Origin: Eubacterium sp. | Lineage (GTDB): Bacteria > Bacillota > Clostridia > Lachnospirales > Lachnospiraceae | NCBI GenBank assembly: GCA_022791495.1 | Contig: JAAVZE010000023.1 | Location: 1 to 43,498 of the forward strand | Direction of reading: 5' to 3' | Length of the DNA: 43,498 nucleotides | Part shown: in pieces, positions 18,207-43,458 of the stretch | Position numbering within the stretch: position 1 is the first letter of the stretch | Layout: every line of letters begins with the position of its first letter | The notes under the pieces: generated by a model | What the model saw: only the letters and a program-made list of their open reading frames with translations | Told to the model about the DNA's origin: nothing | Databases searched by the model: none | Translations under genes and position numbers: made by a program

Positions 18207-18245
18207 CGTCATCCGCTGTTTCCTGGATGGAAACAGCGGATGACG
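18207..18245. other. attL: left attachment site with a perfect palindrome
   Basis: Positions 18220-18237 are identical, base for base, to 42472-42489. The match extends to 27 bases with two mismatches (18211-18237 versus 42463-42489). At this copy the core lies within a perfect 17-bp inverted repeat (18207-18223 with 18229-18245). Read leftward it encodes a peptide resembling the end of the GGGtGRT protein (AVSIQETADDGRF versus AVSIQEAADNGNF), as expected if this is the displaced chromosomal 3' end. Confidence 0.7.
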
Positions 18246-18344
18246 CAACAATGCATATCTTTTCTGTTTTTGTTACCTGTATGCTGCCTGTCCAGCAATT
18301 TTTATACAACCCCAGAACATCTCACCACTTTTACTTGGTAAGAG

Positions 18345-18584
18345 TTATGTTTCCGTTCCCTCATACACATACCCTGTTTCCTGCCAGAATTTCAAGGGCG
18401 ATATATAATAGTCATACTGACTGCTGCCCTCTTTCTTGAACGCTACACCAAAAGGAAGAAAGCCTTGAATAATTCCCTGCCTAATGTACTGCTGGTCTTT
18501 CTTCATTACCTTTGCAGCTACCGCTACTGGTACATTTTCGCCTGTGAATTTAGGCATCTCTAAATATACTTTCTTATCCCGCAT
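18345..18584 (-). CDS. Small phage protein of unknown function (79 aa)
   Basis: A 79-residue protein with AAGGAAG before the ATG. The sequence has a helical N-terminal part (VPVAVAAKVMKKDQQYIRQGI) followed by a beta-hairpin-like stretch and YYISPLKFWQETGY. This pattern recalls small DNA-binding proteins of Firmicute phages, but that is inference. It lies closest to attL, which is a place where an excisionase or accessory protein could sit. It follows the upstream gene by three bases and is probably cotranscribed from the promoter at 19172-19200. Confidence 0.7.
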   Translation of the reverse strand: MRDKKVYLEMPKFTGENVPVAVAAKVMKKDQQYIRQGIIQGFLPFGVAFKKEGSSQYDYYISPLKFWQETGYVYEGTET

Positions 18585-18587
18585 ACG

Positions 18588-19004
18588 TCAAACACTTCCT
18601 TTCCCCAAGCTCTCCAACTGCTGGCCGCTGAATGCAGAAACAGGCCAATTATTTATTAAAACTTCAAACGTCTTGAATCCATATATAAATCCCTGCATTT
18701 CTGCCTCAATAGCAACTCCAAACAAAGAATCTTCTAACTTTCTGCTTTGTTCTGAATTAATATTTGTCTGTTTCAACGCTTCATAAAATGCTTCGTACTC
18801 ATCTCTGAGTTCTGCGATTTCCCTTCCCTCCTCTGCTGGCCCTGTGATAAATCGATCGAACAAATCTGTTATGTACTGGCACTCCATCCTTGATCTTCCC
18901 TGCAGCAGGATGTTTTCCGGAAACTGCTCTTTTGACATATGTTCGAGCAAAACTGCCCGCTGTACCGGTTTGTCCTGACTGCTATTCTTTTCTGTTTCTC
19001 TCAT
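18588..19004 (-). CDS. Element accessory protein of unknown function (138 aa)
   Basis: A mostly helical 138-residue protein with no signal or membrane segment. The start at 19004 is chosen for AAAGGAAG just upstream; a longer frame from 19040 has no ribosome site. The C-terminal half (LFGVAIEAEMQGFIYGFKTFEVL) recalls small helical phage proteins of DUF6809 type, a weak guess. It is the first gene after a strong leftward promoter that carries an operator-like site resembling that of the early promoter. It may therefore be induced together with the lytic genes, as accessory (moron) cargo is in other phages. Confidence 0.7.
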   Translation of the reverse strand: MRETEKNSSQDKPVQRAVLLEHMSKEQFPENILLQGRSRMECQYITDLFDRFITGPAEEGREIAELRDEYEAFYEALKQTNINSEQSRKLEDSLFGVAIEAEMQGFIYGFKTFEVLINNWPVSAFSGQQLESLGKGSV

Positions 19005-19171
19005 TTTTCCACTTCCTTTCCGGGTGTGTATTCCAATCAATTACATTGATTTTCTCTATATCCGGCAACCTTTTACTTCATTTTTGCGTATTCTCCACCT
19101 TGTTTTCTCGTATTTGCGTGCATTCAAGGTAAAAAAATAATTTCCAGATTTATTAGTAGTAGTTGAAATTA

Positions 19172-19200
19172 ATTGTATCTCGCATTCACGTGATTGTCAA
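19172..19200 (-). promoter_or_regulatory. Promoter of the left-end accessory unit with operator-like site in its spacer
   Basis: On the minus strand TTGACA (19195-19200) and TACAAT (19172-19177) have a 17-base spacer. The spacer holds the 12-mer TCGCATTCACGT at 19180-19191 (plus-strand reading). A related 12-mer lies at 19108-19119, downstream of the start. The roughly 300 bases between the genes at 19004 and 19312 hold only these signals. Confidence 0.7.
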
Positions 19201-19311
19201 GTACTTTATTGTTCAATTTCGACCTCCACTACACAACCTCCCTCCTGTATCCTATTGGGAAGCCCCCGAAAGAATTCACCTCCTAACTTTATACATACTC
19301 AGAATTTTGAT

Positions 19312-19996: not shown

Positions 19997-20794
19997 TTAT
20001 TTCAGAAGCTTTTTCATTTGTAACTTAGATTTTTCTCCGTAAATCCCATCCACCACCAGGTTATATTTCTTCTGAAATATCTTCAGGGCGTTTTCAGTCT
20101 TTGTACCAAATTCTCCGTCCACAGAAAGACCACTCTTCATCACATGATTCAGATCTTTCTGCAGGTTCTTAACCTGAGTACCGCTGCTTCCTTTTCGCAG
20201 GTTGGGTGGCGCCGATGCCAGGGCGGGAACTGTGTCTTTGGCACCACTGGCGTTTTTTATTGTGCCGGCTTTCGATCCCTGGGTGAGATTGATCGCCACA
20301 TGGTGCCCATCGTTGAGAAGTACATCTCCCGGAATCAAGTAATCATCACCTGTCAGATACCTGGAATGTGTGAGCACTTCAAATCCAGCCGCTTTCAGCG
20401 CCGCGCGCAGATTGGATGTGGTACAGTTCGGATTGACATTCTGCAGTTTCTTTAATCCCATCTGATGACCTGCTGCAATGACATTCGCGGCAGTAGACGA
20501 CGAACAGTCTGCTTCACAATTTGTTTTGATCTTTTCAGGTTTCCACCCTGCTGCTTTGAGCTGTGTATAATATGTAGTACGCTGGCTCTGGTCATAGCCG
20601 ATCTTTTCATTTTTTGCAGCGGCTTTTGCAATCTTTGCCAGTATCTTACCCACATCGGCATTCGGATGCCGCAGCACACACTTCCAGGGTCTGTTATACC
20701 AGCTCCTTATTTGGTATTCTGTACCGGTTTGGTCTCCTGCTTTTCCCCCACTGTATCTCTTGTTTTCGTCATGTCCGCAATTCGAAATACTCAT
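19997..20794 (-). CDS. Phage endolysin with peptidoglycan-binding domain
   Basis: A 265-residue lysin. The N-terminal catalytic part (about residues 1-175) resembles a cysteine amidase or peptidase of CHAP/NlpC type: Cys97 in EADCSSS at the start of a helix and His164 or His165 in GDVLLNDGHHVAIN. Residues about 197-265 are a PG_binding_1 domain (LRKGSSGTQVKNLQKDLN and VDGEFGTKT). It would cleave host peptidoglycan to release particles. No signal peptide is present, in line with export through the holin. AAGGAGGTG precedes the ATG. It starts one base after the stop of the holin-like gene. Confidence 0.88.
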   Translation of the reverse strand: MSISNCGHDENKRYSGGKAGDQTGTEYQIRSWYNRPWKCVLRHPNADVGKILAKIAKAAAKNEKIGYDQSQRTTYYTQLKAAGWKPEKIKTNCEADCSSSTAANVIAAGHQMGLKKLQNVNPNCTTSNLRAALKAAGFEVLTHSRYLTGDDYLIPGDVLLNDGHHVAINLTQGSKAGTIKNASGAKDTVPALASAPPNLRKGSSGTQVKNLQKDLNHVMKSGLSVDGEFGTKTENALKIFQKKYNLVVDGIYGEKSKLQMKKLLK

Positions 20795-20795
20795 A

Positions 20796-21020
20796 TTACC
20801 ACACCTCCTTTTTCTTCTGGGAAAGATATTCTCTCACCATATTCCACACTGCCGAAATTCCTGCCGACAATCCGGCGATCAGCATGGAGCGGAGGATCAT
20901 CCCTGCACTCTCAGTATCTGTGATGGCAAATATCTGTTCCATACTTACATTTGCCACAAATGCCTGCATAAATGTCTTGCCCGCCCTTATACACACATCT
21001 TTCCAGTCGATTCTTTTCAT
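20796..21020 (-). CDS. Holin-like protein (r1t-holin-like)
   Basis: A 74-residue protein with two hydrophobic segments: AGKTFMQAFVANV and MILRSMLIAGLSAGISAVWNMV. A polar, lysine-rich C-terminus follows. The layout and the opening IDWKDVCIRAGKTFMQA resemble the r1t holin family. Holins form membrane lesions that let the endolysin reach the wall. The ATG at 21020 has GGAGGA upstream; a frame from 21041 is longer but poorly placed. It lies directly before the endolysin gene. Confidence 0.75.
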   Translation of the reverse strand: MKRIDWKDVCIRAGKTFMQAFVANVSMEQIFAITDTESAGMILRSMLIAGLSAGISAVWNMVREYLSQKKKEVW

Positions 21021-21037
21021 TTGCCATTCCTCCATTC

Positions 21038-21358
21038 TCAATACAGAGCATCTATCCCTTGTTCCCGGATGAAATCTCTATGCTTGATCTTTACCTTGGT
21101 GGCATAGGTCAGCGCATCCTGCATGTCCCCATTACAATGTGCATCTGGGATCCGCTGCACCGCTTTCGCGGTGGCTTCCCCCAGCGTGATCGCTGCCATC
21201 ACGCCTTCAATAACGATGGCTTCATTCTGCCGTCTCGCTTCATCCTTCTTTTCTTCTGCCTTCTGCCCCTTCATCATCCTTCGTTCCAATAACCAGAAAC
21301 AAAATCCGGTAATCGCTGATGGAAGGCTCATAGCCAGTAAGATTGTCTGCACACCCAC
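21038..21358 (-). CDS. Small membrane protein of the lysis module (106 aa)
   Basis: A 106-residue protein with one N-terminal membrane segment (LAMSLPSAITGFCFWLLE) followed by a charged, coiled-coil-like stretch and a basic C-terminus. GTG is the start, with AAGGAGG upstream. Its place just before the holin suggests a lysis role, such as a second holin or an antiholin. No family is recognised with certainty, so the name stays general. Confidence 0.7.
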   Translation of the reverse strand: MGVQTILLAMSLPSAITGFCFWLLERRMMKGQKAEEKKDEARRQNEAIVIEGVMAAITLGEATAKAVQRIPDAHCNGDMQDALTYATKVKIKHRDFIREQGIDALY

Positions 21359-21668: not shown

Positions 21669-23687
21669 TCACACACCTCCTTCCATTTTTATAATACGCT
21701 GTTCCAATTCATCAAATTTCTTCTCCGTATCGCTCTTATACTGCATAAACTCTTTCCGGGTTTCCTGCAGAACATACATCGCCGTCAGATAGAGTTGTTC
21801 ATAATCAACTGCATAATCATAGATCAGTTTCGGATTTCTCTTTCGGTCCCACACATTGGCATTTACCATCTCACATGCGGGAAGAAAATACATTTTATAC
21901 TCGCCGATAAAATCGACATCGATGATAACAGTCTCATAATCCTTCAGTCGGATCCCCAGTTCAGAAATCTTCAAAAGGTATGTTCCATACATTTTGTCAA
22001 ATGTTATGGTGATAGAATCCTCATCCGCATCATAAACTCCTTCGGATAAAGGATTCGAGAAATCCTTATCATCCTGCTCGTAATATGACAGTCCTCCCAG
22101 GTTAAGCGGCAGCTGGGTAAGATTTCCTTCTTTGTCTATCAGATGAATGGAGTTGATCTTCACCGGGGGCTGATAATGCTCTTTCGATACCTTTGCATTA
22201 TCTTCGATCAGCAGATACTGGATGTTCTCCCGGTAATCACTGAACTCCAGTTCGCTGACCGGCATTTCAATCACCTCGTTCAGCACCTGGTATCCCTGGT
22301 CATGTTTATAGTTCCAGACATTTTCAGAATAATCATAGATAATACCTTTCTCTTCATTGGCATAGGGCGCCCGCCATCCGCCAGCGATTCTGTTATCGGA
22401 GGTGTTGGGAATAAAAAATGTAGCCTTGACAGGGGAAAACTCCATATCATCAAGTCCACATTCCCAGATCCACTCCTCCAGATCCTGGGCGATCACTCCC
22501 AGATGATACCGGGAGTGATCCGGTTCCGTCATTCCTGGATTGGTACCTTTATATTGAAACATAGAAATAAGCATCTTATCAAAAAGTTTGATATAGCGGT
22601 CATCGGACAGTGCCGAAATGTTTTTCTTCAGATTTCGATCTGAAGGCGTTCCTTTTGTCGCGTAATATATCGTATCAAAATAACGTGAACTAGTTCCCAG
22701 GGTTATAATAGAACTGGTTCTTTTTGCGCAATAAGGCACCAGTTTTTGGGCGCATCCAAACATCCGTAATGAAACACTTTCCAACCTTGTTTGAGCTCCC
22801 GAAGTATTCATCGTTGAAAATGGAGGTGCGTAGATATCCAGAGCTGATTGATCTTCCAAAAATCTCATGCCTGCTGAACCTATATTATAAGTTCCCAAGC
22901 TCGATGGATTCATCGACTCAGTCTTACTGTAAGAAATTTCAAACCCCTTTTTCGATTTGATTACTCCAGGATTATCAGTTGTAAGTAAATAATTGTCGTG
23001 AGTATGTTTTATCGGCGCATAATCATCAACATGTTTATGCGATGACAAAGCATAGCCGCTGTGGGTATGCGTACTACTTGCCTTTCCGGAAAGCTTACTG
23101 TCCACTGTAGCTTTGGTATAGTAATTCTCATCATGGGTGTGATTTGCTGAAGCATAGTTGTGGGTGTGAGCTGTCAGGGCATAGTTACTGTGGGTGTGGG
23201 TCGTCGCCGCAAAACCGCTGTGGGTGTGCTCAGCTGCCGCATAGTTGCTGTGGGTATGTGACGCCGGCGCATAATTATGGGTATGGCTGGTTTTCGCATA
23301 ATCCGAATGGGTATGTGACGCCGGGGCATAGTTATGAGTGTGTGTACTATTTGCCTTTTCGGAAAGCTTACTATCCACCGTGGCTTTCGGATAATATTTA
23401 TCATCATGGGAATGGGCGCTTGCCGGAAATGTAGAAGGTTTGTTTTTGATGTACGCATCCGAATTTTGATCTGTCACATTCCAATCCGGCTGCACGTTAA
23501 CCCCGGCGCCTGACTCTACCGTCCCCAGCTTATTTTTTACTGCTTCGATCTCCCTGTTGTTGGCAACGGTATTATCCAGCAGCTGCCGGGTAGTGGTATT
23601 TATGTTATCTGCATGATTTGTATCTGAAGTCTCAAGAATCTTAATCTTATTACTGAATCCTGCATTGCTGTTTGTATAATCTTTCAT
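21669..23687 (-). CDS. Tail fibre with HxH repeats and Peptidase_S74 chaperone domain
   Basis: A 672-residue receptor-binding fibre. After an N-terminal attachment region, residues about 90-240 hold about 14 short repeats with His-x-His (for example HTHNYAPAS). In phage T4 gp37 such motifs bind iron in a fibre. The sequence PSDRNLKKN places Ser349 and Lys354 as the self-cleavage pair of an intramolecular chaperone (S74) domain. About 320 residues follow the cut site, more than usual, ending in a coiled coil (QETRKEFMQYKSDTEKKFDELE). AAGGAGG precedes the start. This protein should set which cells the particle binds. Confidence 0.88.
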   Translation of the reverse strand: MKDYTNSNAGFSNKIKILETSDTNHADNINTTTRQLLDNTVANNREIEAVKNKLGTVESGAGVNVQPDWNVTDQNSDAYIKNKPSTFPASAHSHDDKYYPKATVDSKLSEKANSTHTHNYAPASHTHSDYAKTSHTHNYAPASHTHSNYAAAEHTHSGFAATTHTHSNYALTAHTHNYASANHTHDENYYTKATVDSKLSGKASSTHTHSGYALSSHKHVDDYAPIKHTHDNYLLTTDNPGVIKSKKGFEISYSKTESMNPSSLGTYNIGSAGMRFLEDQSALDIYAPPFSTMNTSGAQTRLESVSLRMFGCAQKLVPYCAKRTSSIITLGTSSRYFDTIYYATKGTPSDRNLKKNISALSDDRYIKLFDKMLISMFQYKGTNPGMTEPDHSRYHLGVIAQDLEEWIWECGLDDMEFSPVKATFFIPNTSDNRIAGGWRAPYANEEKGIIYDYSENVWNYKHDQGYQVLNEVIEMPVSELEFSDYRENIQYLLIEDNAKVSKEHYQPPVKINSIHLIDKEGNLTQLPLNLGGLSYYEQDDKDFSNPLSEGVYDADEDSITITFDKMYGTYLLKISELGIRLKDYETVIIDVDFIGEYKMYFLPACEMVNANVWDRKRNPKLIYDYAVDYEQLYLTAMYVLQETRKEFMQYKSDTEKKFDELEQRIIKMEGGV
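23030..23420. repeat. Degenerate tandem repeats coding for the fibre HxH region
   Basis: Units of about 30 bases with a shared GTGGGTRTG-like core (plus strand) recur across this stretch. They encode the HTH-x(5-7) repeats of the tail fibre. The repeats are coding, and their number could change by slippage or recombination. Confidence 0.8.
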
Positions 23688-23698: not shown

Positions 23699-24082
23699 TT
23701 AAAATACATCATCCAGAGTAAAGGTCATCTGGATATCTGCGTCCTTTCCCTTACTCTTAAATGTCTTGATACAGGCAATATCACCGTTTTCATCATATAA
23801 TCCTATTTCGCTGATATCTTCCCCAGCCAACTCGTTTTCTGCCAGTATACATACATACTGACAGGTTGTGTCTGCCGGAAATGTATAGCCTTTTATTTCC
23901 TTGCGGTATAACTCCTGTATAAGTTCTTCCTGATCCGCTGTCGGCGCTGCCACATTTCCAGAGGAATCCACCCCTCCATCTCCAAAAGCCATCCCGACGA
24001 TTTTAGGAAGGGTGATCGCCCCGGCTCTTGCCTTTACCATGTTTTCTCTTGCTTTTTTTGTAATGATTACATTGTTTGCCAT
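23699..24082 (-). CDS. Phage tail-collar/fibre-connector protein (DUF3751-like)
   Basis: A 127-residue protein with the N-terminal pattern VIITKKARENMVKARAGAITLPKIVGMAFGDGG, typical of the tail-collar fibre N-terminal domain that attaches fibres to the baseplate. It lies between the baseplate protein gene and the fibre gene, the usual place. AAGGAGG precedes the ATG. The protein is short compared with full fibres, so it probably acts as the connector while the next gene supplies the shaft and tip. Confidence 0.8.
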   Translation of the reverse strand: MANNVIITKKARENMVKARAGAITLPKIVGMAFGDGGVDSSGNVAAPTADQEELIQELYRKEIKGYTFPADTTCQYVCILAENELAGEDISEIGLYDENGDIACIKTFKSKGKDADIQMTFTLDDVF

Positions 24083-24084: not shown

Positions 24085-25086
24085 TTATAAAACCTCCTTT
24101 TGATATATGGAATTCATTATTTTTGATCCATCAAAACAGACAGAACCATCAAAAAAACATAAATTCCTTGTTCTTGTCATCGTGACATTACCAACAGATT
24201 CTTCTGATTCTTCAATCTGCAGAAAGTGGTCGACGTTTATATTTCCGTCGTTACATACCTGATCCCGGAATTCAATCTTCGCCCTCACACTTCCCGATAC
24301 TTTAATACATTCTTTTGCAGCTATCCCACTATGTACAGTCATTGCAGTAAGATAAAATACCTCCTGCACGGTAAATTTTATCCGGTTACACTGCAGTCCT
24401 AAAATCAGGTTATACTGTCGTTGCCCGTCCATCACCAGGGAACCATCAAAACAGTCCGTCCCGTCAAATATATGGCATCTCCAGAATGAAATCGAGGTCT
24501 TGATCCCTGCCATAGGCGCAAATGCTCTCTCCATCCCTCTGTAATCCACAATGATGATCACCATGTCCTCGATCGTATCATATACTGTGTGGGACTGTTT
24601 CATCCTGTTCAGTTCATAAAACACCGCCTTGGCATCAAGAGTCCCTTCCTTTATGAAAATAACTTTAAATATATTGGGATGTTTCGCCACATATCCAAAT
24701 CTGCCGGGATTATGGAAGTCCATCACATGAACCTCAGCGCCTAACATCTTCCCAAGGTACTCTTCCATCCTGTATGGTGTCATCGGTGCCCTAAAATCCC
24801 GTTTCTGATAAATCCTTTTTCTGCGTTCATCATAGCTGAGATTTTCCCGGACCGGCAGCTGCCATTTGATCTCATGAAAACGCAGCCCCCATGTGGCTGT
24901 CTCCGGTGCAAACTGCTTTGGCAGCTCCTCTTCTATGATTGCCACTGCCTGATCCCACTCCATCCCCATAACCTGCAGCAGCCATTTCATGACATAAGAA
25001 TCTTTGTAAAATTCCTGGGAAATGGTGCCCAGCATACGTTTTGCCGCTTCGCTGGAAGGGAAGTTTTCAATATCAAAGTCTGACAA
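24085..25086 (-). CDS. xkdU: Baseplate/tail protein, DUF2313 (YmfQ, XkdU-like, P2 gpI role)
   Basis: A 333-residue protein. The N-terminal 200 residues match the DUF2313 pattern (WGLRFHEIKWQLP, SYDERRKRIYQKRD, PMTPYRMEEYLGKML) of the protein that follows baseplate J in PBSX and Mu. The C-terminal extension holds two related FDGS boxes (FDGTDCFDGSLVMDG and FDGSVCFDGSKIM), which may be an added binding module. A GTG at 25095 lies directly on the ribosome site, so the TTG at 25086 with AGGGGG eight bases upstream is preferred. It sits in the baseplate operon. Confidence 0.82.
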   Translation of the reverse strand: MSDFDIENFPSSEAAKRMLGTISQEFYKDSYVMKWLLQVMGMEWDQAVAIIEEELPKQFAPETATWGLRFHEIKWQLPVRENLSYDERRKRIYQKRDFRAPMTPYRMEEYLGKMLGAEVHVMDFHNPGRFGYVAKHPNIFKVIFIKEGTLDAKAVFYELNRMKQSHTVYDTIEDMVIIIVDYRGMERAFAPMAGIKTSISFWRCHIFDGTDCFDGSLVMDGQRQYNLILGLQCNRIKFTVQEVFYLTAMTVHSGIAAKECIKVSGSVRAKIEFRDQVCNDGNINVDHFLQIEESEESVGNVTMTRTRNLCFFDGSVCFDGSKIMNSIYQKEVL

Positions 25087-25098
25087 CCAAAACACCCC

Positions 25099-26241: not shown

Positions 26242-26253
26242 CTGCCTCACCTC

Positions 26254-33337: not shown

Positions 33338-33422
33338 ACCCTTTTCCTCCATTCAATCTTTAAATGATAAAGAGGAACCCTCTAAACAGGTTCCCCCTTA
33401 TCCTTCATATTGTTCTGTTGTC

Positions 33423-35570: not shown

Positions 35571-36446
35571 CTAATTAATAGTATTTACAATCTCAACTAT
35601 ACGATGTTTCTTCTGCCGGTATTTTAACAGGCCATAATGAAGCGTGACTAATATCTGTCCGTCTTTGAGATGATCTGATCTATAATTTACCTGCAGCTGC
35701 TTTATGGACACAGGAGATTGATCCAGCATGCTGATCTCTCCCGCAAGAGATAACTGATTAGCAATGGCGGCCTCTATTTTGAGGCGTATCTCATTGTCTG
35801 GACATAAAACATGGACAGCAATCCCGCTGTCCATCCATACGACCGTATTCGTTTCTGTCCCTTTATCCATAGTGACATTCCGACAGTAAACTACCGGGAC
35901 TTCTTTCGAGATCTCGGTGATGTCATCTATTCTGTCCAGACCAATAACCAGACAATCCAGATCAAGCTCTTTGATGTACCTGTTTACTGCCACGACGGGA
36001 TCGGGGTCTGTTGTTTCCTGATCTGGATATTCAAACATATCAAATCGCATTTTACTTCCGATGATCCCACCATTCTCTTTTCCGTCAATAGAATAACCAT
36101 CTGTTCCTGCCCATGCAAATGCATACGGGGAACCACCCTCTGGTTTCAGAAGAACATCCCTGAGACATTTTTTTACTTCCGCTTCGACAGCCTCCGGCAG
36201 AATCTCCATCGTGTTCTGACAGATCAGAGTCACTACCAGGGTTCCCACGCTTTTCCTCTCTTCGTTTGCCTGCATATCTAAATTGTATACAATCTGTGGG
36301 TATTGTGTGTTTCCGCTCCATCCCTCATGATCAGCCTCCGGCGACCGCGTACTGAACACCGCCGGACCTCCAGCAAAAGATGCCAGATATCCTGTCAGCT
36401 CCTGGGAACCAGAAAATCTTTTATAAATCAGCTGTTCCAGATTCAC
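35571..36446 (-). CDS. Probable tail completion or terminator protein
   Basis: A 291-residue protein that I do not place in a named family. Its position between the connector-like gene and the sheath is that of tail completion or tail terminator proteins. GTG at 36446 is the likely start, since AGGAGG lies six bases upstream; the longer frame from 36578 overlaps the previous gene by far more. Within it, AAIANQLSLAGEISMLDQSPVSIKQLQVNYRSD is typical of beta-rich connector folds. The remaining overlap with the previous gene is 26 bases. Confidence 0.65.
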   Translation of the reverse strand: MNLEQLIYKRFSGSQELTGYLASFAGGPAVFSTRSPEADHEGWSGNTQYPQIVYNLDMQANEERKSVGTLVVTLICQNTMEILPEAVEAEVKKCLRDVLLKPEGGSPYAFAWAGTDGYSIDGKENGGIIGSKMRFDMFEYPDQETTDPDPVVAVNRYIKELDLDCLVIGLDRIDDITEISKEVPVVYCRNVTMDKGTETNTVVWMDSGIAVHVLCPDNEIRLKIEAAIANQLSLAGEISMLDQSPVSIKQLQVNYRSDHLKDGQILVTLHYGLLKYRQKKHRIVEIVNTIN

Positions 36447-36738
36447 CTGTCTCCTCCTGTTCCGGCTCTGCTGTCCTGTATTCGTAAACTTCCGACAGAT
36501 CCGCAGACCATCTGATCTCCCAATCCTGTGCTGCCACTTCAGAGATGGGGATAATAAAATGATTCGTAACATTTCCAATGCCAGGATGATATTGTACTGT
36601 CATCTGCGTTTCTGTGACTGATGTCACAATCCCTGTTTTTCCCTCAGGCCACGTATAATGCCTGCCATAACATACGAAACCGGGAAAAATCTGTGTCAGG
36701 TCAAAAATCGCCGTCGGCTTTTCTGCCACTAAACTCAT
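36421..36738 (-). CDS. DUF5026-like connector-region protein
   Basis: A 105-residue protein. FDLTQIFPGFVCYGRHYTWPEGKTGIVTSVTETQMTVQYHPGIGNVTNHF resembles a conserved small beta-barrel family (DUF5026-like) near the head-tail junction of clostridial phages. AGGAGG precedes the ATG. It is the first clear structural gene after the regulator, and so marks the edge at which head genes would be expected to end. Confidence 0.65.
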   Translation of the reverse strand: MSLVAEKPTAIFDLTQIFPGFVCYGRHYTWPEGKTGIVTSVTETQMTVQYHPGIGNVTNHFIIPISEVAAQDWEIRWSADLSEVYEYRTAEPEQEETGESGTADL

Positions 36739-36828
36739 AACTGCCTCCTATCAATACGGTTTCCCATATCTTCTCTCCAATTCTGGCCTGCCTGAGCAGT
36801 CCGATGTTTTCTGTTTCCTCTTCTTATG

Positions 36829-37080
36829 TCATTTCACATCATCCCTTTCCTTCGCATAATAAATGACTGATAAATCAAAAAGAACCGCAGGGAAAAGTAG
36901 GTTCATACTTCTCTCCAGCGGTCCGATATTGAAAATCGTCTCACAGTCTTTTATGCTCTTCTGCCATTGTTCATCCTTCCCCAGGCATTTGTCCAGATCC
37001 TCTGCCCAGCTGGCTTCTACCGGGGCAGCATATGGAATTATTACTAATACCATAATAACATGTATCCATTCCCCTGTCAC
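36829..37080 (-). CDS. Small protein of unknown function at the missing-head junction (83 aa)
   Basis: An 83-residue frame starting at GTG, with AAAGGG upstream. The first 25 residues are hydrophobic (VIMVLVIIPYAAPVEA) and may form a membrane segment or signal. The rest contains LDKCLGKDEQWQKSIKDCETIF and a second hydrophobic part. After its TGA, 25 further codons (KKRKQKTSDCSGRPELERRYG onward to TGA) stay open in the same frame, which may be chance. It could be a genuine small gene or a remnant of deleted DNA. Confidence 0.4.
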   Translation of the reverse strand: MTGEWIHVIMVLVIIPYAAPVEASWAEDLDKCLGKDEQWQKSIKDCETIFNIGPLERSMNLLFPAVLFDLSVIYYAKERDDVK

Positions 37081-37140
37081 TCTACCCTTTTTCTACTCAT
37101 GCTGTCCAGCTGTACCTCTGACGTAAAATGTGCCGTAAAG

Positions 37141-37707
37141 TCATATTCCAAGTAGATAAACAGCGAGTACCTTACAGGCAATCCCGATATCTTTATAAAC
37201 TGTCTTTTCGCTTATATTCTCCGTCTCCGCGATCTGCTGTACAGTATAGATCTTTTCCTCCAGATACATCATCCGGAGCTCCCGGAACCGTCTTTTTACC
37301 TCTTCACTTCCAATTTCCTGACACTCCTTCCCATATAATTCCACGGCTTTTTCAATGCAGCGGATCAGATACGCGTCCTCCTTCCTTCTCTTTTCGTCGC
37401 TGATCATTGTCATTTCCGATCTGCTCACCACACTGCTTGCACTTCCCATCAGATCTTCAACAAACCGCCATCTTAAATCCATCTTTTCATCTTCTGAAAA
37501 TTCGACCTCCTCCAACATCCTGGCCTTTGCCCTCCGGTATGAGCTGAGTAATCGTTTGGTATTTTTGACCTTATCCCGCTCCTTCTCTGCCGCAATGTCA
37601 TGTTTCCTGCTTTCTTCCATAAAAACCTTGACAGCTTCTCTCGCAGCAATCTTGGCTATTTCTTTTTCGGTAAGCAGATTTTTCTGTGTGACATTATCCC
37701 CTGTCAT
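37141..37707 (-). CDS. Late-gene regulator with sigma-70 region-4-like HTH (ArpU/RinA type)
   Basis: A 188-residue basic, helical protein. The C-terminus (YTVQQIAETENISEKTVYKDIGIACKVLAVYLLGI) is a helix-turn-helix like sigma region 4 and ArpU-type late regulators. In related phages such proteins activate the structural operon. GGAGGT precedes the ATG at 37707; an in-frame TTG six bases earlier is less suitable. It lies between the DnaC-like loader and the tail genes, the usual place for the late switch. Its target promoter was not found. Confidence 0.78.
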   Translation of the reverse strand: MTGDNVTQKNLLTEKEIAKIAAREAVKVFMEESRKHDIAAEKERDKVKNTKRLLSSYRRAKARMLEEVEFSEDEKMDLRWRFVEDLMGSASSVVSRSEMTMISDEKRRKEDAYLIRCIEKAVELYGKECQEIGSEEVKRRFRELRMMYLEEKIYTVQQIAETENISEKTVYKDIGIACKVLAVYLLGI

Positions 37708-37736
37708 ATGCAATACACCTCCATTTTTTTCTGTTT

Positions 37737-38600
37737 TTAACCCTCCAACAATTTTTGCATGCTGTCAAAACGTCTGGCTGCTTCTGCTTCCCGGTATGAT
37801 CTTCCCCTTACATGGACTGGATAACACATTTCAAAAATACGATCATATATCCGCCGGTATCGGATATCCGTCGTCTGTATCATATCGTTTAAAATCAGGT
37901 TCGTAGTCAGAATAAGCGGTTTTCCTGAGCAGTAGCGGCTGTCGATCACATTATAGACTTTTTCCAGAGCATACTCTGTATTTCGCTCTGTTCCCAGATC
38001 GTCTATGACCAGCAATTCTACCTCCTGAAGCTTCTTTATCCAGACACCTTCATCCACTCTCATAGACTGCATATCCTGCAGTATTTTGACAAACGACGTC
38101 ATGATCACCGTATGCATATTTTCTATCAGTTCATTGGCAATGCACGCTGCCGTATAACTTTTCCCTGTCCCAACCTCTCCCCAGAACAAAATACCTTGAT
38201 TTTTCCGGTACATTTCCTTAAATCCACTTACATACCTTTTTGCCAGGTCAAATACTTTGCGATTGTCATCCGTTATGGTATAACTCGACAACCTGGCTTT
38301 CTTAAATTTTGTCACGATCAGGCTGCTCTGTCGAAGGGTGCTGATTCTTTGCTGCTTTTCCCTGTATTCATCGCACCTTCTTTCTTCTTCTAATTCTTCC
38401 TGACGGCATTTGCACACACATGGAACCGTTTTCATTTCCCTATTTCCGCCTGCCGTTGGAAAACAGATCCTGGTTTCTTTCTTAGTCCTGCATTTACCAC
38501 AGTAGAGCAGACCATCCTCTCCTACAAAATCATTTCCAGACACTTCGGCTCTGTCTATTTCTGAAAATATTTCATTTATTATGTCTCTCAATCTGTTCAC
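37737..38600 (-). CDS. DnaC/DnaI-like helicase loader ATPase
   Basis: A 287-residue AAA+ protein. The Walker A motif is GEVGTGKS at 141-148 and Walker B ends in Asp200-Asp201 (VELLVIDDLGTER). An N-terminal zinc-binding part has Cys34, Cys37, Cys61, Cys63 and Cys65. It would load the replicative helicase at the element's origin together with the preceding replisome organiser. GTG is the start and overlaps the stop of the upstream gene by four bases (GTGA), giving translational coupling. Confidence 0.88.
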   Translation of the reverse strand: MNRLRDIINEIFSEIDRAEVSGNDFVGEDGLLYCGKCRTKKETRICFPTAGGNREMKTVPCVCKCRQEELEEERRCDEYREKQQRISTLRQSSLIVTKFKKARLSSYTITDDNRKVFDLAKRYVSGFKEMYRKNQGILFWGEVGTGKSYTAACIANELIENMHTVIMTSFVKILQDMQSMRVDEGVWIKKLQEVELLVIDDLGTERNTEYALEKVYNVIDSRYCSGKPLILTTNLILNDMIQTTDIRYRRIYDRIFEMCYPVHVRGRSYREAEAARRFDSMQKLLEG

Positions 38601-39349
38601 CTGCCTTTGAATGGGTTTGTGCCATCCTCAATCAATTCGTTGCTGCCTCCTGCCTGGGATGGAGTAAGATAGTCTAGAAATGGTAATGCATCGGATAAAA
38701 AGGTCTTGGGATGTTTAATAAATTTTTCTTCTGTATGTCTCTTTATAACCTCATCTGCATACGCTGTTGCTGCTTTCATTAATTCCTCAGAATGATATCC
38801 GTCATTCAGCCTCGCCATATATTTTTTGTAGGCACTCCCTTTCTCCTTTTTTCTTGGGTATACCTTCCAGAATTCTTCAAAATCTTTCGTATAGGGAACT
38901 GCCTTTTTTTCTTCTGCCAGTAGAAGCTGCCCTTCGGATCCTTTTCCGTCAGGGAGAGTTTTCTGCATATCTTCCAGCATCTTTTTCTGCCTGCTCCTGC
39001 GCTTTCTCCTGGCAGCATCTGTTTCTGATCCAACCATCTCATCACACTGGGTAAGCATATACTCATACTGGGATTCATCGGTAACAACCAATAACCCCGT
39101 CCTTTGCAGGAAAGAGACCGTAACCTCCACATTTTCTACAGTCTCATCAAGCTCCAGTGCCAGCTCTTTCACAAAAGTATCCTCGATTCCCTCGAAATAA
39201 AGACGATTGTTCTGCCGTATTGCCAGTAAAAGCATTTTCAGATAGACAACCGTATAACTGTCACCTCCGGCAACCTTACGAAGTTTTTTAATTTCTTTTG
39301 ACTTGAAGAAATCATCCCCTAGTTTGAGCCAATAGTATTTTTTTTCCAC
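38597..39349 (-). CDS. Phage replisome organiser (DnaD-like replication initiator)
   Basis: A 250-residue protein. The N-terminus YYWLKLGDDFFKSKEIKKLRK is the signature of the phage replisome organiser N-terminal domain. A basic middle (RRKRRSRQKK) and the C-terminal FEEFWKVYPRKKEKGSAYKKY block complete the usual form. It should bind origin DNA and bring the DnaC-like loader. GTG at 39349 has AGGAGG eight bases upstream. Keeping replication genes would be odd in a fixed tailocin and suggests recent phage origin. Confidence 0.85.
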   Translation of the reverse strand: MEKKYYWLKLGDDFFKSKEIKKLRKVAGGDSYTVVYLKMLLLAIRQNNRLYFEGIEDTFVKELALELDETVENVEVTVSFLQRTGLLVVTDESQYEYMLTQCDEMVGSETDAARRKRRSRQKKMLEDMQKTLPDGKGSEGQLLLAEEKKAVPYTKDFEEFWKVYPRKKEKGSAYKKYMARLNDGYHSEELMKAATAYADEVIKRHTEEKFIKHPKTFLSDALPFLDYLTPSQAGGSNELIEDGTNPFKGR

Positions 39350-39375: not shown

Positions 39376-39972
39376 TTACTCTAAACAGAAATATTCGTGA
39401 CCGAAACGCTTATATATTTTACTACCTTGGGGAAATTCTGCCTGAAATAACAGATTATCCGGGTAATCCTTTTCAAGATTAAATCGTAAGATTTCTTCAG
39501 CAAATTCCAAGCTTCTTTCATCCGGTCTGCAATTAATTTTTCCTGTCTGATACGTTGAATATTGACCTTTCTGTGATATTACTCCTTCTAGCGTATCAGG
39601 ATATTTCTTTGACTTCATCCTCTTTACGACGACGATCCCTGTCAGAAACACACAATCATCATCCTCCGCTGCCCCGTTTTCCGCGTACATCAGCTGCGCC
39701 AGCCGGTAAATCTTCTTTACCGTCACTCCTTTTGCTGACGGGATCTGGGTTGACTGCGGAATGTGGCTCGCCTGTGGAGTATGGGTTGGTTTCGGGAGCC
39801 GTCTCGGGGGAGTAGTCACTAGCTCTACCGCCGGTTTAAAATAATCCACAACAAACTTTTTATTTGCAATCTCTGGTTTCTTAACTTCCCTTACAGACTC
39901 AAAAATCAATACCATCATCCACAACAAAGCCACTGAGAAAAACAGTACGAAGCATTTTTTGATTCGTCTCAC
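39376..39972 (-). CDS. SleB/CwlJ-like cell wall hydrolase in the early region
   Basis: A 198-residue protein. It starts at GTG with AAGGAGG upstream. The N-terminus has a membrane segment or uncleaved signal (CFVLFFSVALLWMMVLIFES), then a Pro/Thr-rich linker (about 55-80). Residues about 85-198 form a Hydrolase_2 (SleB-type) domain with Glu98 in YAENGA as the likely catalytic acid, and the family pattern GQYSTYQTGKINCRP. SleB-type enzymes cleave peptidoglycan, often in spore cortex. Its place between the switch and replication genes, away from the lysis module, is unusual. The protein may alter the host envelope early after induction. Confidence 0.78.
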   Translation of the reverse strand: MRRIKKCFVLFFSVALLWMMVLIFESVREVKKPEIANKKFVVDYFKPAVELVTTPPRRLPKPTHTPQASHIPQSTQIPSAKGVTVKKIYRLAQLMYAENGAAEDDDCVFLTGIVVVKRMKSKKYPDTLEGVISQKGQYSTYQTGKINCRPDERSLEFAEEILRFNLEKDYPDNLLFQAEFPQGSKIYKRFGHEYFCLE

Positions 39973-40035: not shown

Positions 40036-40440
40036 TTATACCGCCTGCTTAATGCCAAGCAGGTTATTGATAGCTGCCACGATCTCCTCCCGTAACCAGT
40101 GCCCGTTGATAACCAATGATACCTGATCCCGTGTAAAACCAATGTCCTCTGACAACTGCTTGATCGTCATTTTCCTATCAATCAGACATTTGCGAACTTC
40201 TTTACACCATTCTTCTGACGGCGTATCAAGCCTTTCCGGGATTCCCTCTGTACCAAGCATATCGTTTATCCTTGTTACAATATCTTTGTACTCATTACTG
40301 GCATATCTTCCATTCAACAATTTGGAAATTGCTGTAGATGGATAACCAAGCTCAGCGGACAGCTGTTTGATTGTCATATCCCTGTCAATTAAAGCCTTTT
40401 TTACCTCTTTATTCCAGTGTGAAGCAACTTTTTTATGCAT
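40036..40440 (-). CDS. Cro-like regulator with two tandem HTH domains
   Basis: A 134-residue protein made of two copies of one domain. Residues about 9-64 read KEVKKALIDRDMTIKQLSAE and onward; residues about 78-131 read KEVRKCLIDRKMTIKQLSED and onward. Each carries an XRE-type HTH ending in an IN-x-x-LG helix. Such a protein could bind a double operator as a single chain. It is the first leftward gene of the lytic direction, across the switch region from the repressor, so a Cro-like role is inferred. AGGAGG precedes the ATG. Confidence 0.8.
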   Translation of the reverse strand: MHKKVASHWNKEVKKALIDRDMTIKQLSAELGYPSTAISKLLNGRYASNEYKDIVTRINDMLGTEGIPERLDTPSEEWCKEVRKCLIDRKMTIKQLSEDIGFTRDQVSLVINGHWLREEIVAAINNLLGIKQAV

Positions 40441-40506
40441 TTTTACACCTCCTCTCGTATTTGTTGTTTATTTTTACGAGATTGAGTGCTATAATAAAGA
40501 CGAACA

Positions 40507-40627
40507 TTTACAAACTCGCATAATAAACAGGAGATATCATTCCGGCTCGCAAATAGGAATAATTTGAATCTCTTATATACATTATAATACGTTTTTGCGA
40601 GTTTGTAAAGTAGTAAATCTCGCAAAT
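40507..40627. promoter_or_regulatory. Lysis-lysogeny operator region
   Basis: Fourteen-base inverted repeats (40507-40520 with 40596-40609) lie 75 bases apart. CTCGCAAAT occurs exactly at 40546-40554 and 40619-40627, the latter in a near-palindrome TCGCAAATGCGA. Together these make at least four sites between the divergent regulators, as in lambdoid-type switches, and looping is possible. Confidence 0.7.
40581..40609 (-). promoter_or_regulatory. Early leftward promoter with operator-like site in its spacer
   Basis: On the minus strand TTTACA (40604-40609) and TATAAT (40581-40586) have a 17-base spacer. Positions 40589-40600 (plus: ACGTTTTTGCGA) lie inside the spacer, at the same offset as the related site in the accessory promoter. 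A palindromic ATTATAAT could also give a rightward -10 box for the repressor gene. Confidence 0.75.
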
Positions 40628-40653
40628 GCGATACATTTATATGGAGGTATCCT

Positions 40654-41034
40654 ATGGAAATATGTGACCGGATTTTTAGTACTCTTGACAAAAAAGACAA
40701 GATGGCGGCTGATCTATGTAAATTTCTTGATATCCAGTCTTCCACAATGTCAACATGGAAAACACGAAAGAAAGACCCTCCTGCAAAATATATGAAGAAA
40801 ATCTCCATTTTTCTGGGTGTCTCATTGGAGTGGTTACTTACAGGAGAAGAGCTGGAACAGACACTTTCGATTGGGAATCATGAATTAAGTGAAGATGAGA
40901 ACGATCTATTAGCTCTCTACAGAAAATTACCAGAACGAAAAAAATACGAAACAATCGGAGAACTTAAGGGGTTTCTAAAAGCAGTTGAAGAGTCACAAAA
41001 ATACCTTGACCAGGAGAAAAAGGTATCTGTATAG
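40654..41034 (+). CDS. XRE-family repressor (CI-like)
   Basis: A 126-residue protein. Residues about 5-65 form an XRE-type HTH (KMAADLCKFLDIQSSTMSTWKTRKKDPPA, then MKKISIFLGVSLEWLLTGE). The C-terminal part is helical and charged, without a LexA-type Ser-Lys peptidase, so release from repression must work another way than self-cleavage. TGGAGG precedes the ATG. It is divergent from the Cro-like gene and lies directly before the integrase gene on the same strand, as in many Firmicute prophages. Confidence 0.85.
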   Translation: MEICDRIFSTLDKKDKMAADLCKFLDIQSSTMSTWKTRKKDPPAKYMKKISIFLGVSLEWLLTGEELEQTLSIGNHELSEDENDLLALYRKLPERKKYETIGELKGFLKAVEESQKYLDQEKKVSV

Positions 41035-41105
41035 CCTGATACCATTTTTTCCTGACACAGCTTAGAAGAATTCCCTGCAGAACAAACGAAAAAGGAAGTG
41101 ATACC

Positions 41106-42236
41106 ATGAGACTGCCAAATGGCTATGGCAGCGTGACCAAACTATCTGGTAATCGCCGTAAACCATATGTTGCCAGGGTTACGCTGGGGTGGGTCCATGA
41201 CGAAAAATCTGGGAAAATGGTTCAGAACCGTGTACAAATTGGAACTTTTAGAACGAAGAAAGAGGCTCTTCAGGCGCTTTCTGAGTATACTGCCAATCCA
41301 TACGATATAAAAAAAGACAACCTTACTCTTGCTGAGCTATATCAGAGATGGACGGATGCTTATTTTCCCACCCTCAAAGGTGAATCATCCAGGCGGATCA
41401 TAATCTCTGCGTGGAGATATTGCCATGCGATCCACGGTATGCGGGTCAGAGACCTCCGGGCAAGGCATATCAAGGGGATCATGGAGGATGGATATATCAT
41501 TTCTGAACGTGGGAAAAACGCCGGAGAAAAAATAAAAGCTTCTGCCGGCACAAAATCCCGCATTAAATCTATGTTCAACCTCATGCTGGACTATGCCCTG
41601 GAGTATGAACTGGTTGATACAAACTATGCCCGGACTTTTGACCTGCCAAACGACATTATCCTGGAAAAGGAGACGGCTGCTCGCGGACATATTATTTTTA
41701 CTGATATAGAAATGCAGGCTTTATGGGAAAATGTAGAAACCCTTCGTTTCGCAGACTGGATTCTGATTCAATGTTATATGGGATGGCGGCCACAAGAACT
41801 GGCAAAATTGAAGATAGAAAACGTACATCTTGATGAACGCTATATCACAGGAGGAATGAAAACAGATGCCGGAAAAGACAGAATTGTCCCCATTCACCCC
41901 CGGATTTTCGATCTAGTGAAGAAAAACTACATAACAGCTGTAGAATTAGGAAGTGAATATCTTCTCAACGACCCCACTGCTGTCAAAGGCGGCATGAACA
42001 TAACCTATGACAAATACGCCGGACGGTTTAACAAGATCATTTCTGCCCTTAACCTTCGGAATGACCACAGACCACATGATCCAAGAAAGACATTTATAAC
42101 GATGGCCAAAAAAGCGGGGGTGGATGAATATGTGATTAAACGCCTGATCGGTCATCGGATCACTGACATAACAGAGGCTGCCTACACAGAACGAGATGTG
42201 GAATGGCTCAGAGAAGAACTTGAAAAGATACCTTAA
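41106..42236 (+). CDS. int: Tyrosine-type site-specific integrase
   Basis: A 376-residue recombinase with an N-terminal arm-binding part, a core-binding SAM-like domain (about 70-180) and a catalytic domain. Catalytic residues are visible: Arg228 in GWRPQEL, His324 and Arg327 in HDPRKTF, His350 in GHRI and Tyr360 in AAYTERD. AAAGGAAG precedes the ATG. The stop codon is 235 bases from attR. Cotranscription with the repressor would keep integrase present during lysogeny. Confidence 0.93.
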   Translation: MRLPNGYGSVTKLSGNRRKPYVARVTLGWVHDEKSGKMVQNRVQIGTFRTKKEALQALSEYTANPYDIKKDNLTLAELYQRWTDAYFPTLKGESSRRIIISAWRYCHAIHGMRVRDLRARHIKGIMEDGYIISERGKNAGEKIKASAGTKSRIKSMFNLMLDYALEYELVDTNYARTFDLPNDIILEKETAARGHIIFTDIEMQALWENVETLRFADWILIQCYMGWRPQELAKLKIENVHLDERYITGGMKTDAGKDRIVPIHPRIFDLVKKNYITAVELGSEYLLNDPTAVKGGMNITYDKYAGRFNKIISALNLRNDHRPHDPRKTFITMAKKAGVDEYVIKRLIGHRITDITEAAYTERDVEWLREELEKIP

Positions 42237-42360
42237 ACGGAAGGATACGGTACTTTTATTCATTTTTCTTTTGTTACCTGCATGTTACCTACACGTTGCC
42301 TACGGAGCAAATTTTGTGGCATTTTACCACGTCTTACAGCCAATTTCAACTTTTTATCTT

Positions 42361-42414
42361 AAAAACAAAGAAAGTACCGTAGCCCCTTAGAACTACGGTA
42401 CTTTCTTTGTTTTT
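42361..42414. terminator. Bidirectional terminator between int and the GGGtGRT gene
   Basis: A 22-bp perfect inverted repeat (42361-42382 with 42393-42414) has A and T runs at both ends. It lies on the element side of attR, so the element brings a terminator for the host gene whose 3' end it replaces. Confidence 0.88.
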
Positions 42415-42447
42415 AAAAAAATATATTTTTAGAATTTCCCATGGAAA

Positions 42448-43458
42448 CTAAAAGTTTCCATTATCTGCTGCTTCCTGGATGGAAACAGCCACTGCAACTG
42501 TCATACCAACCATCGGGTTGTTTCCTGCGCCGATCAGGCCCATCATCTCTACGTGTGCCGGCACAGATGAAGAACCTGCAAACTGTGCGTCGCTGTGCAT
42601 ACGTCCAAGGGTATCTGTCATACCATAGGATGCAGGACCTGCTGCCATGTTATCCGGGTGAAGGGTACGTCCTGTACCACCGCCAGATGCCACAGAGAAG
42701 TATTTTTTACCCTGCTCCAGACACTCTTTTTTATATGTACCTGCAACAGGATGCTGGAAACGAGTAGGATTTGTAGAGTTACCAGTAATGGATACGTCTA
42801 CACCTTCCTTGTGCATGATCGCAACACCTTCCTGAACGTCATTGGCACCATAGCAGTTTACTTTGGAGCGAAGACCCTCAGAATAGGAAATACGGGATAC
42901 TTCTTTCACGGTATTTGTATATGGATCATACTCTGTCTCAACAAAGGTAAATCCGTTGATGCGGGAAATGATCTGTGCAGCATCTTTTCCAAGACCATTC
43001 AGAATAACGCGAAGCGGATTCTTACGAACCTTGTTTGCCTTCTCGGCGATACCGATCGCACCCTCTGCTGCAGCGAAGGACTCATGTCCAGCCAGGAAAC
43101 AGAAACACTCTGTCTCTTCCTCAAGAAGCATCTTTCCAAGATTTCCATGTCCCAGACCTACCTTACGGGTATCCGCCACAGATCCCGGGATACAAAATGC
43201 CTGGAGTCCTTCACCGATCGCTGCTGCTGCATCTGCTGCCCGTTTGCAGCCCTTCTTGATCGCGATCGCAGCACCTACTATGTAAGCCCAGCACGCATTT
43301 TCAAAACAGATCGGCTGAATACCTTTGATCTGATCGTATACATTTAAGCCCGCATCTTTTGTAATCTTCTCCGCCTCTTCGATGGATGAGATGCCGTACT
43401 CATTCAACACGCTGTTGATCTTATCAATTCTTCTTTCATATGATTCAAATAAAGCCAT
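42448..43458 (-). CDS. GGGtGRT family protein
   Basis: A 336-residue protein with the name-giving motif GGGTGRT at about residue 258, in a conserved C-terminal region (HPDNMAAGPASYGMTDTLGRMHSDAQ). The biochemical role of the family is not known to me; in some anaerobes I recall it near iron-sulfur scaffold genes. AAAGGAGG precedes the ATG. The last eight codons lie beyond the att core and are probably element-derived, but they keep a similar amino acid sequence to the displaced end. The gene is the integration site of the element. Confidence 0.9.
   Translation of the reverse strand: MALFESYERRIDKINSVLNEYGISSIEEAEKITKDAGLNVYDQIKGIQPICFENACWAYIVGAAIAIKKGCKRAADAAAAIGEGLQAFCIPGSVADTRKVGLGHGNLGKMLLEEETECFCFLAGHESFAAAEGAIGIAEKANKVRKNPLRVILNGLGKDAAQIISRINGFTFVETEYDPYTNTVKEVSRISYSEGLRSKVNCYGANDVQEGVAIMHKEGVDVSITGNSTNPTRFQHPVAGTYKKECLEQGKKYFSVASGGGTGRTLHPDNMAAGPASYGMTDTLGRMHSDAQFAGSSSVPAHVEMMGLIGAGNNPMVGMTVAVAVSIQEAADNGNF
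42463..42489. other. attR: right attachment site inside the GGGtGRT coding end
   Basis: Positions 42472-42489 repeat 18220-18237 exactly. Read leftward, the core is six codons, Ala-Val-Ser-Ile-Gln-Glu, near the end of the GGGtGRT protein. After the core come eight residues and a stop, which would be supplied by the element, so the gene stays intact. Confidence 0.72.

Follow-up and report, generated by a model that had tools for sequence, protein, structure and literature searches.

The window, by which we mean the whole 43,498-nt stretch of DNA analysed, corresponds to a single contig from a Roseburia genome (G000; draft MAG, 201 contigs, 83% complete) and contains a 24.3-kb integrated element at positions 18220-42489. 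The element encodes a repressor, an integrase, two replication proteins, a presumed late regulator, a contractile tail and lysis proteins, and has no head genes. Its ends are marked by an 18-bp exact direct repeat, at 42472-42489 on the integrase side and 18220-18237 on the far side, which corrects the start at 18211 given by an earlier, sequence-only reading. The host gene is GGGtGRT (42448-43458, minus strand; PF14057, E 9.7e-191), found without an element in another genome (G021). Alignment with this empty site places the repeat 24 bp before the gene end and shows that the 3' end of the gene is supplied by the element; an apparently decayed and displaced GGGtGRT 3' end lies beyond the far repeat. 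The same headless gene order occurs at the same gene in three of 39 Roseburia genomes (G000, G026 and G036), some of the 39 being incomplete, and each copy has the 18-bp repeat on both sides. All compared copies come from draft MAGs; in G026, as in G036, the element is divided between two contigs.

The integrase and the repressor are on the plus strand and all other element genes described here on the minus strand; dN/dS values refer to comparisons among the three copies. The early region opens with the tyrosine integrase (41106-42236; phrog_1, E 3.2e-45, PF00589; dN/dS 0.07 and 0.09) and a CI-type repressor of 126 residues (40654-41034; PF07022, E 2.4e-11; dN/dS 0.09). No LexA-like protease domain was matched in this repressor, and SOS-type operators, searched by pattern, are at chance level (3 matches against 2.8 expected). 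Next come a 134-residue regulator with two HTH stretches (40036-40440; PF01381, PF13443; dN/dS 0.10-0.11), a SleB-like Hydrolase_2 protein (39376-39972; PF07486, E 5.3e-10), a replisome organiser (38597-39349; phrog_5968, PF09681; dN/dS 0.11), a DnaC-like helicase loader (37737-38600; phrog_50, E 4e-62, PF01695; dN/dS 0.10-0.11) and a phrog_1558 protein (37141-37713; E 5.7e-23). The last, of unknown function in PHROGs, is the presumed late regulator; its C-terminus looks HTH-like by eye, and in relatives its gene lies upstream of the head module. Constraint on two further ORFs, 40443-40808 and 36829-37080, is not gene-like.

The first structural gene retained encodes a DUF5026 protein (36424-36738; PF16429, E 1.7e-32; dN/dS 0.08-0.10), for which, as for two neck proteins, PDB gave no useful match. 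The following phrog_2146 protein (35574-36446), previously called a connector, is probably the tail terminator, or collar: its profile weakly matches chain 9gb5_H, the gp53 tail adaptor protein (E 0.0042, positions 70-268 of 284). Behind a small phrog_1939 protein (35314-35559; E 3.8e-17) lie the tail sheath (33902-35311; phrog_279, E 2.3e-99, PF04984; dN/dS 0.03-0.06), tail tube (33423-33887; phrog_365, PF09393), XkdN-like tail assembly chaperone (32756-33352; phrog_389, PF08890), a tape measure protein of 1226 residues (28921-32601; phrog_19074, phrog_167) and a LysM protein (28234-28917; PF01476, phrog_380). The baseplate region comprises a YqbQ-like hub (26998-28221; PF24032, E 2.9e-24, phrog_400), a phrog_2403 protein (26721-26987), a sheath initiator or wedge (26254-26709; PF10934, phrog_120), a baseplate J wedge (25099-26250; PF04865, E 1.4e-49) and a Mu gp48-like protein (24085-25095; PF10076, phrog_1160). 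A collar-fibre N-terminal protein (23699-24082; PF12571, phrog_1780) precedes the fibre (21669-23687), the presumed specificity factor, which has an internal S74 chaperone domain (PF13884 at 349-405) and shows low identity at residues 201-300.

The lysis genes, present in all three copies, encode a phrog_9428 protein with one TM-like segment (21038-21358; E 5.9e-42), a holin-like protein (20796-21041) and an endolysin with ELLD and peptidoglycan-binding domains (19997-20794; PF25309, E 9.3e-72, PF01471). Two membrane lysis proteins had been proposed; the second is a weak candidate, with a phrog_443 holin match at E 9.6e-6 and no 19-residue Kyte-Doolittle window above 1.6. The far end holds a 150-residue protein without a family (18588-19040) and a phrog_6058 protein (18345-18584; E 1.5e-21; dN/dS 0.01-0.03).

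Full-length relatives, the comparison suggested by the sequence-only reading, carry a head module exactly where the element has none. In Roseburia G015 an 82%-identical integrase lies at the GGGtGRT gene with an early region up to phrog_1558 (contig C66), and a second contig (C57) runs from TerL through the neck to a tail of the same type, behind the head module. MT835491.1, an unverified metagenomic record, has an identified head module of TerL, portal, morphogenesis, major head and Neck1 genes. The two phages share the element's module order, and their sheaths are 84% (G015) and 60% (MT835491) identical to that of the element; unlike the element, they carry head and packaging genes in the interval from phrog_1558 to DUF5026. 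No close relative of the element's endolysin was found in G015.

The element itself lacks the terminase, portal and capsid of a complete temperate phage, and the contractile tail with integration and replication genes recognised beforehand was borne out by PHROG and Pfam families and head-region profiles. Among the 30 element ORFs scanned against PHROGs, none matched a terminase, portal or capsid family. Two match PHROGs filed under head and packaging: 24085-25095 matches phrog_21322 ("virion structural protein") and is rejected as a head protein on its baseplate families, and phrog_1224, matched by 19997-20794, is named endolysin. Profiles of the MT835491 head region (15 ORFs, four as single sequences), run against six frames of the element, gave no match with E under 0.07 apart from the remnants of neck genes in the junction described below. 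One ORF of that region, labelled "TerS", is phrog_2412, without known function; this label, like h125 and the other h names, was coined here.

Between the presumed late regulator and the DUF5026 gene lie 402 bp (36739-37140, minus strand), in agreement with the spacing of about 400 bases noted earlier. This junction is evidently a deletion scar in which the 3' tips of two otherwise lost neck genes survive: the last 16 codons of an h125-type gene and, shortly before 36738, the last ~12 codons of a Neck1-type gene. The Neck1 3' end of the window aligns with that of G015 at a score of 40, reached by none of 20000 shuffles (next best element site, 25), and none of 20000 shuffles reached the scores against G416 and G435 either. 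Taken alone, MT835491 does not support the scar (82/20000 for the window, 78/20000 for G026), the best site of the MT835491 motif not being the scar, and in G036 it is weaker for three relatives (8 to 18/20000) and for MT835491 (1075/20000). Offsets of up to two residues were permitted equally in data and shuffles; with a wrong end register, MT835491 alone among four relatives gave a positive result (15/20000), the other three being negative. The h125 C-terminus is recovered both in G026 (E 8e-4) and in the window (E 0.017), values that weaken to 0.0036 and 0.079 in a larger search because more sequence is searched. The G036 junction has undergone a further deletion.

Across element genes, dN/dS among the three copies is mostly 0.03-0.25, with dS from 0.09 to 0.98; looser constraint is seen in the phrog_1939 protein (0.36-0.52), the 150-residue protein (0.35-0.37) and the tape measure (0.22-0.36). 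All three genomes keep open reading frames for the tail, lysis and early genes; the exceptions, the tape measure of G026 and the fibre of G036, are split at contig ends. These ratios indicate purifying selection on the tail genes, integrase, replisome organiser and helicase loader. Median dS of the early region is close to that of flanking host genes (0.48 vs 0.47 in G026, 0.37 vs 0.36 in G036), and that of the tail departs from it in both directions (0.26 vs 0.47 in G026, p 0.0042; 0.56 vs 0.36 in G036, p 0.0008). As regards vertical inheritance, host dS is tracked by the early region and not by the tail, in an element carried by three of 39 genomes. The headless state seems old rather than recent, because the early region diverges as much as the flanking host genes.

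The wider tail family was examined in 37 viral loci, the subset of 62 in which the sheath is preceded by at least about 4.3 kb of sequence, several near-duplicates included; head genes lie directly before DUF5026 in 35 of them. A tree was built with 27 of these 35 loci plus L166, whose headless label is provisional because it has only 4.3 kb before DUF5026, with ORFs listed without annotation. Bacterial genomes were classed as head-bearing (G015, G435, G416 with two neck genes at a contig edge, G095, G199, G747, G599, G594, G631) or headless (G000, G026, G036, G279, G434, G436, G145); outside both classes are G719 and six genomes with contig ends or too distant (G194, G135, G689, G660, G606, G718). 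For two of these, G606 and G718, no head match turned up across more than 10 kb upstream, which carries little weight at 26% terminator identity. With local support of at least 0.999, the Roseburia trio falls beside G015, two Eubacterium tails beside G435, G279 beside MT835491 and L166 beside L164; the placement of G145 has a support of 0.17. Parsimony requires five changes in head state, and 6 of 500 label shuffles reach five or fewer. Headless tails adjoin different head-bearing relatives, on which ground we reject a single origin of all of them, and the tree indicates repeated head loss within this tail family.

A head module might also be encoded elsewhere in the same genome. The idea that this is always so does not hold for the three Roseburia genomes, in whose drafts no strong TerL, portal or major head match of the related-phage type was found. 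G000 has no related portal or major head, and its only TerL match (20 bits) is on contig C129, which bears a second, unrelated contractile element. G036 has a TerL match of 27 bits with stops (C4) and a partial major-head match (C2; 39 bits, E 7.9e-10, 61 of 315 positions) with an ELLD-like endolysin 18 kb away, so that other prophages are likely in this genome. The idea gains partial support in two headless genomes of other genera, with a related-type TerL on another contig of G279 (C20, 545 bits) and a related-type portal on another contig of G436 (C25, 522 bits).

Descent from a complete temperate contractile-tailed phage, whose head module was lost before the element reached its present form, is directly supported by these comparisons. 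The starting point would be a phage integrating into the 3' end of the Roseburia GGGtGRT gene, and an ancestor of the trio would have lost all head and packaging genes, a block that began after the presumed late regulator and extended to the neck genes. We consider it about two-thirds probable that the product is an R-tailocin-like element that retains integration and replication under selection. Upon induction, the phrog_1558 protein would drive transcription of the lysis genes and of those for terminator, sheath, tube, baseplate and fibre. Capping of the tail would fall to the terminator, as it does to the collar in diffocin, and lysis would release particles that kill related bacteria, with targets chosen by the fibre. 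Contractile tail and baseplate are complete, the weakly matched terminator is kept while head and packaging genes are absent, and a cassette for release is present, with a strong endolysin and a weak holin; a cut that keeps the terminator suits a diffocin-like tail. Retention of the integrase, replisome organiser and helicase loader is most likely explained by a higher gene dose on induction, brought about by excision and copying, or by occasional movement. Against this reading stand the constrained replication genes, superfluous for a pure weapon and at odds with the wording "no nucleic-acid replication genes" in PMC12090994, a review whose consulted text describes tailocins as lacking them as well as heads, and the presence of the element in so few Roseburia genomes. 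The chance-level SOS operators, the repressor's missing LexA-like match, the weaker scar in G036 and with MT835491, and the draft state of the genomes likewise count against it. Early genes might also have been refreshed through recombination with full phages. Tailocin-like use most likely remains the best reading, a head-loss domestication known in kind at an unusual stage; the "early stage" of the sequence-only reading agrees less well with the near-equality of early-region and host dS.

Another, rather unlikely, reading is a satellite that provides its own tail, excision and replication and takes capsid, terminase and neck from a helper phage. Capsid-forming PICIs make heads and borrow tails, and the element would be their mirror image. 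Like satellites, it has an integrase and its own replication genes, and these are under purifying selection in scar-sharing copies, which would be the mark of such a life after head loss. Its patchy presence, the existence of an empty site, the apparent exchange of the tail module between species, a head-bearing relative at the same gene in the genus and the head genes of G279 and G436 also fit; but the neck genes required for head joining are among those deleted, host-like divergence of the early region suggests vertical descent, the trio has no strong related head genes, and no terminase or known packaging-redirecting or capsid-remodelling gene, a variable class, was recognised among the scanned ORFs. 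Slightly less probable still is a functionless prophage caught before its remaining genes break. Head loss, the scar, the extra deletion in G036, the three loosely constrained genes and a broken integrase at the GGGtGRT gene of G027, without a related sheath, would agree with decay; open genes and low dN/dS over such dS values argue against it. Loss of the head block during assembly, or its placement on another contig, is conceivable for so fragmented a draft, and is highly improbable: we reject it because three separate genomes, continuous across the junction with common flanks, share both junction and scar.

The route from phage to tailocin has so far mostly been argued from end products. 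Here, one tail family holds full phages, headless elements with neck scars and apparently further reduced tails, and the order of losses can therefore be read: head and neck would go first, the terminator is kept, and integration and replication are long kept under selection in one lineage and unrecognised in some other headless lineages. It becomes testable whether such headless elements are still mobile or able to replicate, and the findings point to possible killing particles of narrow spectrum in the common gut commensal Roseburia; our literature search found no paper on a Roseburia prophage with tail-like particles.

Among known systems, phage satellites (PICI, cf-PICI and PICMI), as described, also combine integrase and replication genes without a complete virion, but the element encodes a whole tail and lysis cassette, with no packaging or capsid-remodelling gene recognised. 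The diffocin of Clostridioides difficile, an R-type bacteriocin, shares the headless contractile tail, and its sheath CD1363 matches that of the element (E 3.3e-6); the phage sheath gp55 of the PDB 9gb5 set is the closer relative of the element's sheath family (E 4e-41). The element keeps integrase and replication genes, which diffocins are not known to carry. The phage phiCD508 of C. difficile has sheath and tail terminator homologues of the element's, but is complete with neck and capsid. The 9gb5 chain names are tied to phiCD508 in the portions consulted of PMC11948020 and PMC13324602, the latter also presenting the diffocin collar CD1362 as structurally homologous to gp53, the tail terminator of the phage. 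The R-type tailocin prophages of Clostridium beijerinckii, in the sections consulted of PMC10538166, share integrase/resolvase, DNA synthesis, tail and lysis modules with the element and release element DNA on induction; according to the same text they keep capsid genes, whereas the Roseburia element has dispensed with its head module.

The genome of the window comprises 2.9 Mb in 201 contigs, the window being one complete contig (C85). Profile searches recovered the tail parts named in the sequence-only reading and, as that reading had claimed for head and packaging genes, found no terminase, portal or capsid family; they also identified lysis genes, an integrase, a repressor, a replisome organiser and a helicase loader. 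The element is bounded by an 18-bp direct repeat with copies at 18220 and 42472, the latter 24 bp short of the end of the host gene GGGtGRT, whose new 3' end is supplied by the element. At an empty site in another genome (G021), GGGtGRT is followed by the GH2 gene that lies beyond the element's far end in the window. The far att copy sits inside a perfect 17-bp inverted repeat (18207-18245) with arms 5 bases apart. The early region encodes a SleB-like cell wall hydrolase (39376-39972), flanked by an HTH gene and the replisome organiser, which has relatives in G015, in MT835491 and in the two other headless copies. Outside the element, 3668-6562 encodes a host-side protein combining HD-CE and HSP90-like ATPase domains.

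Relatives of the window sheath in named records (98, 94 and 83% identity) all come from Roseburia MAGs, and the same three sheaths occur in G026, G036 and G015, genomes of the window's genus. Close sheaths (at least 84% identity) are present in 4 of the 39 Roseburia genomes searched, namely these three and the window's own; all Roseburia copies of the element are from MAGs, and genome and contig counts partly cover related sequences rather than independent events. G026 (C47, C51) and G036 (C8, C33) show the identical headless order at GGGtGRT, with the repeat at both ends. The head-bearing G015 has, on two separate, unjoined contigs, an 82% identical integrase at GGGtGRT with the early region up to phrog_1558 (C66), and TerL, portal, head, neck, DUF5026 and tail (C57); an unverified metagenomic phage record, MT835491.1, carries this order of early region, head and tail in one piece. 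The integration site has also held a decaying element: G027, a genome without a related sheath, has at GGGtGRT a frameshifted integrase piece (C41:1307-1820, L092; 78-88% identity) missing its N-terminal half.

The comparison with full-length phages proposed in the sequence-only reading placed head genes directly before DUF5026 in 35 of the 37 viral contigs examined, out of 62 found, so that in that collection, itself biased towards phages, tails of this family usually belong to a complete phage. Headless tails of the same type also occur in other genera. In G279, an integrase, a replication-initiation-like gene and phrog_1558 are followed directly by DUF5026. In Eubacterium sp. 14-2 (G434) and G436, two-component, STAND or V-ATPase genes lie upstream, and no integrase related to that of the window lies in the fetched stretches. 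In G145, a primase-helicase and a regulator are followed by fragments of Neck1 split between two frames. In a tree built from 46 tails, the headless ones fall in separate places adjoining full phages, with local support of 0.999 or more for four of five placements; G145 has no resolved placement, and the headless label of locus L166 is provisional. Head loss thus appears recurrent in this tail family.

Traces of the lost head are found in the 402-bp junction between phrog_1558 (37141-37713) and DUF5026 (36424-36738). A peptide end a short distance ahead of the DUF5026 start, RPELERRYGKPY, can be aligned with the C-terminus of the G015 Neck1-type protein, KPEIEKIYREPY. With the Neck1 end of G015, G416 or G435 as query, this scar ranks first across all six frames of the element (for G015, score 40 against 25 at the next-best site), and none of 20000 shuffles reaches its score; the MT835491 end does not rank it first, and 82 of 20000 shuffles reach its score. 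Immediately upstream, the preceding neck protein has left its final 16-17 residues, with E 8e-4 for G026 and 0.017 for the window. In the G036 junction the Neck1 remnant is weaker (18/20000 shuffles, G015 query), and no trace of the preceding neck protein was found. Since the scar is common to the three copies, they would have diverged after the head was lost, unless this order was obscured by later exchange.

The position of the cut is consistent with a diffocin-like tail. The protein at 35574-36446 belongs to phrog_2146, a family without assigned function in PHROGs, and its profile match to the gp53 tail adaptor of PDB 9gb5 (E 0.0042, 199/284 profile positions) points to a tail terminator. 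In the phiCD508 reports, gp53 is the tail terminator and structurally homologous to CD1362, the diffocin collar that links sheath and tube (PMC11948020, PMC13324602). Given this match, the element would have retained the cap needed by a headless tail and lost head-joining parts. The phrog_2146 frame at loci L128, L130, L145 and L156 continues to where the following small gene ends.

Pairwise NG86 estimates among the three copies gave dN/dS well below 1 in nearly all element genes, including the integrase (0.07, 0.09), the replisome organiser (0.11, 0.11) and the DnaC-like loader (0.11, 0.10). This does not hold for ORFs 36829-37080 and 40443-40808, and constraint is looser in phrog_1939 (0.36-0.52), a 150-aa protein and the tape measure. 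Early-region dS (7 genes) matches the dS of the host genes alongside the element in both G026 (0.48 vs 0.47, 8 host genes, p 0.78) and G036 (0.37 vs 0.36, 10 host genes, p 0.74), whereas tail dS (15 genes) is closer than host in G026 (0.26, p 0.0042) and further in G036 (0.56, p 0.0008), all p values being rough because linked genes are not independent. The early half thus seems to have been passed down with the host; the tail half has been exchanged. Fibre identity falls in residues 201-300, to 33/50 and 37/50 in G026 and to 27/48 and 28/47 in G036.

The carrier genomes contain other phage-like loci. The window's own genome has another contractile phage element, a distant relative (C129:60001-80000, L005), with a sheath near 68991-69713 (27% identical over the matched part) and its own weak terminase match, TerL-like, at 76998-77510. 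On contig C2 of G036, a partial major-head match (82047-82232) and an ELLD-type endolysin (100186-100944, 47% identity) lie 18 kb apart and point to a further prophage.

The simplest reading of the element is a tailocin-like particle, and it most likely works as a tailocin does. A satellite would instead need a helper phage. Other prophages are likely in the window's genome (C129) and in G036 (C2, C4), but none of the three Roseburia genomes, all drafts, has a strong TerL, portal or major head match to related phages. The sequence-only reading had named, as evidence against itself, a head module always found elsewhere in the genome; this finds a partial counterpart in G279 and G436, which carry TerL or portal of related type elsewhere, and none of strong similarity in the Roseburia trio. 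As the G279 and G436 genes do not concern the Roseburia copies, they leave the odds of a satellite unchanged.

Read as tailocin-like, the element is intermediate among known systems: headless, yet with integration and replication genes under selection. Tailocins are described in a review as lacking both heads and replication genes (PMC12090994); the element has the latter under selection and on that point falls outside the textbook definition. The tailocin prophages of C. beijerinckii, as reported (PMC10538166), retain capsid genes together with integrases and DNA-synthesis genes; the element differs in being headless, but likewise carries integration and replication genes.
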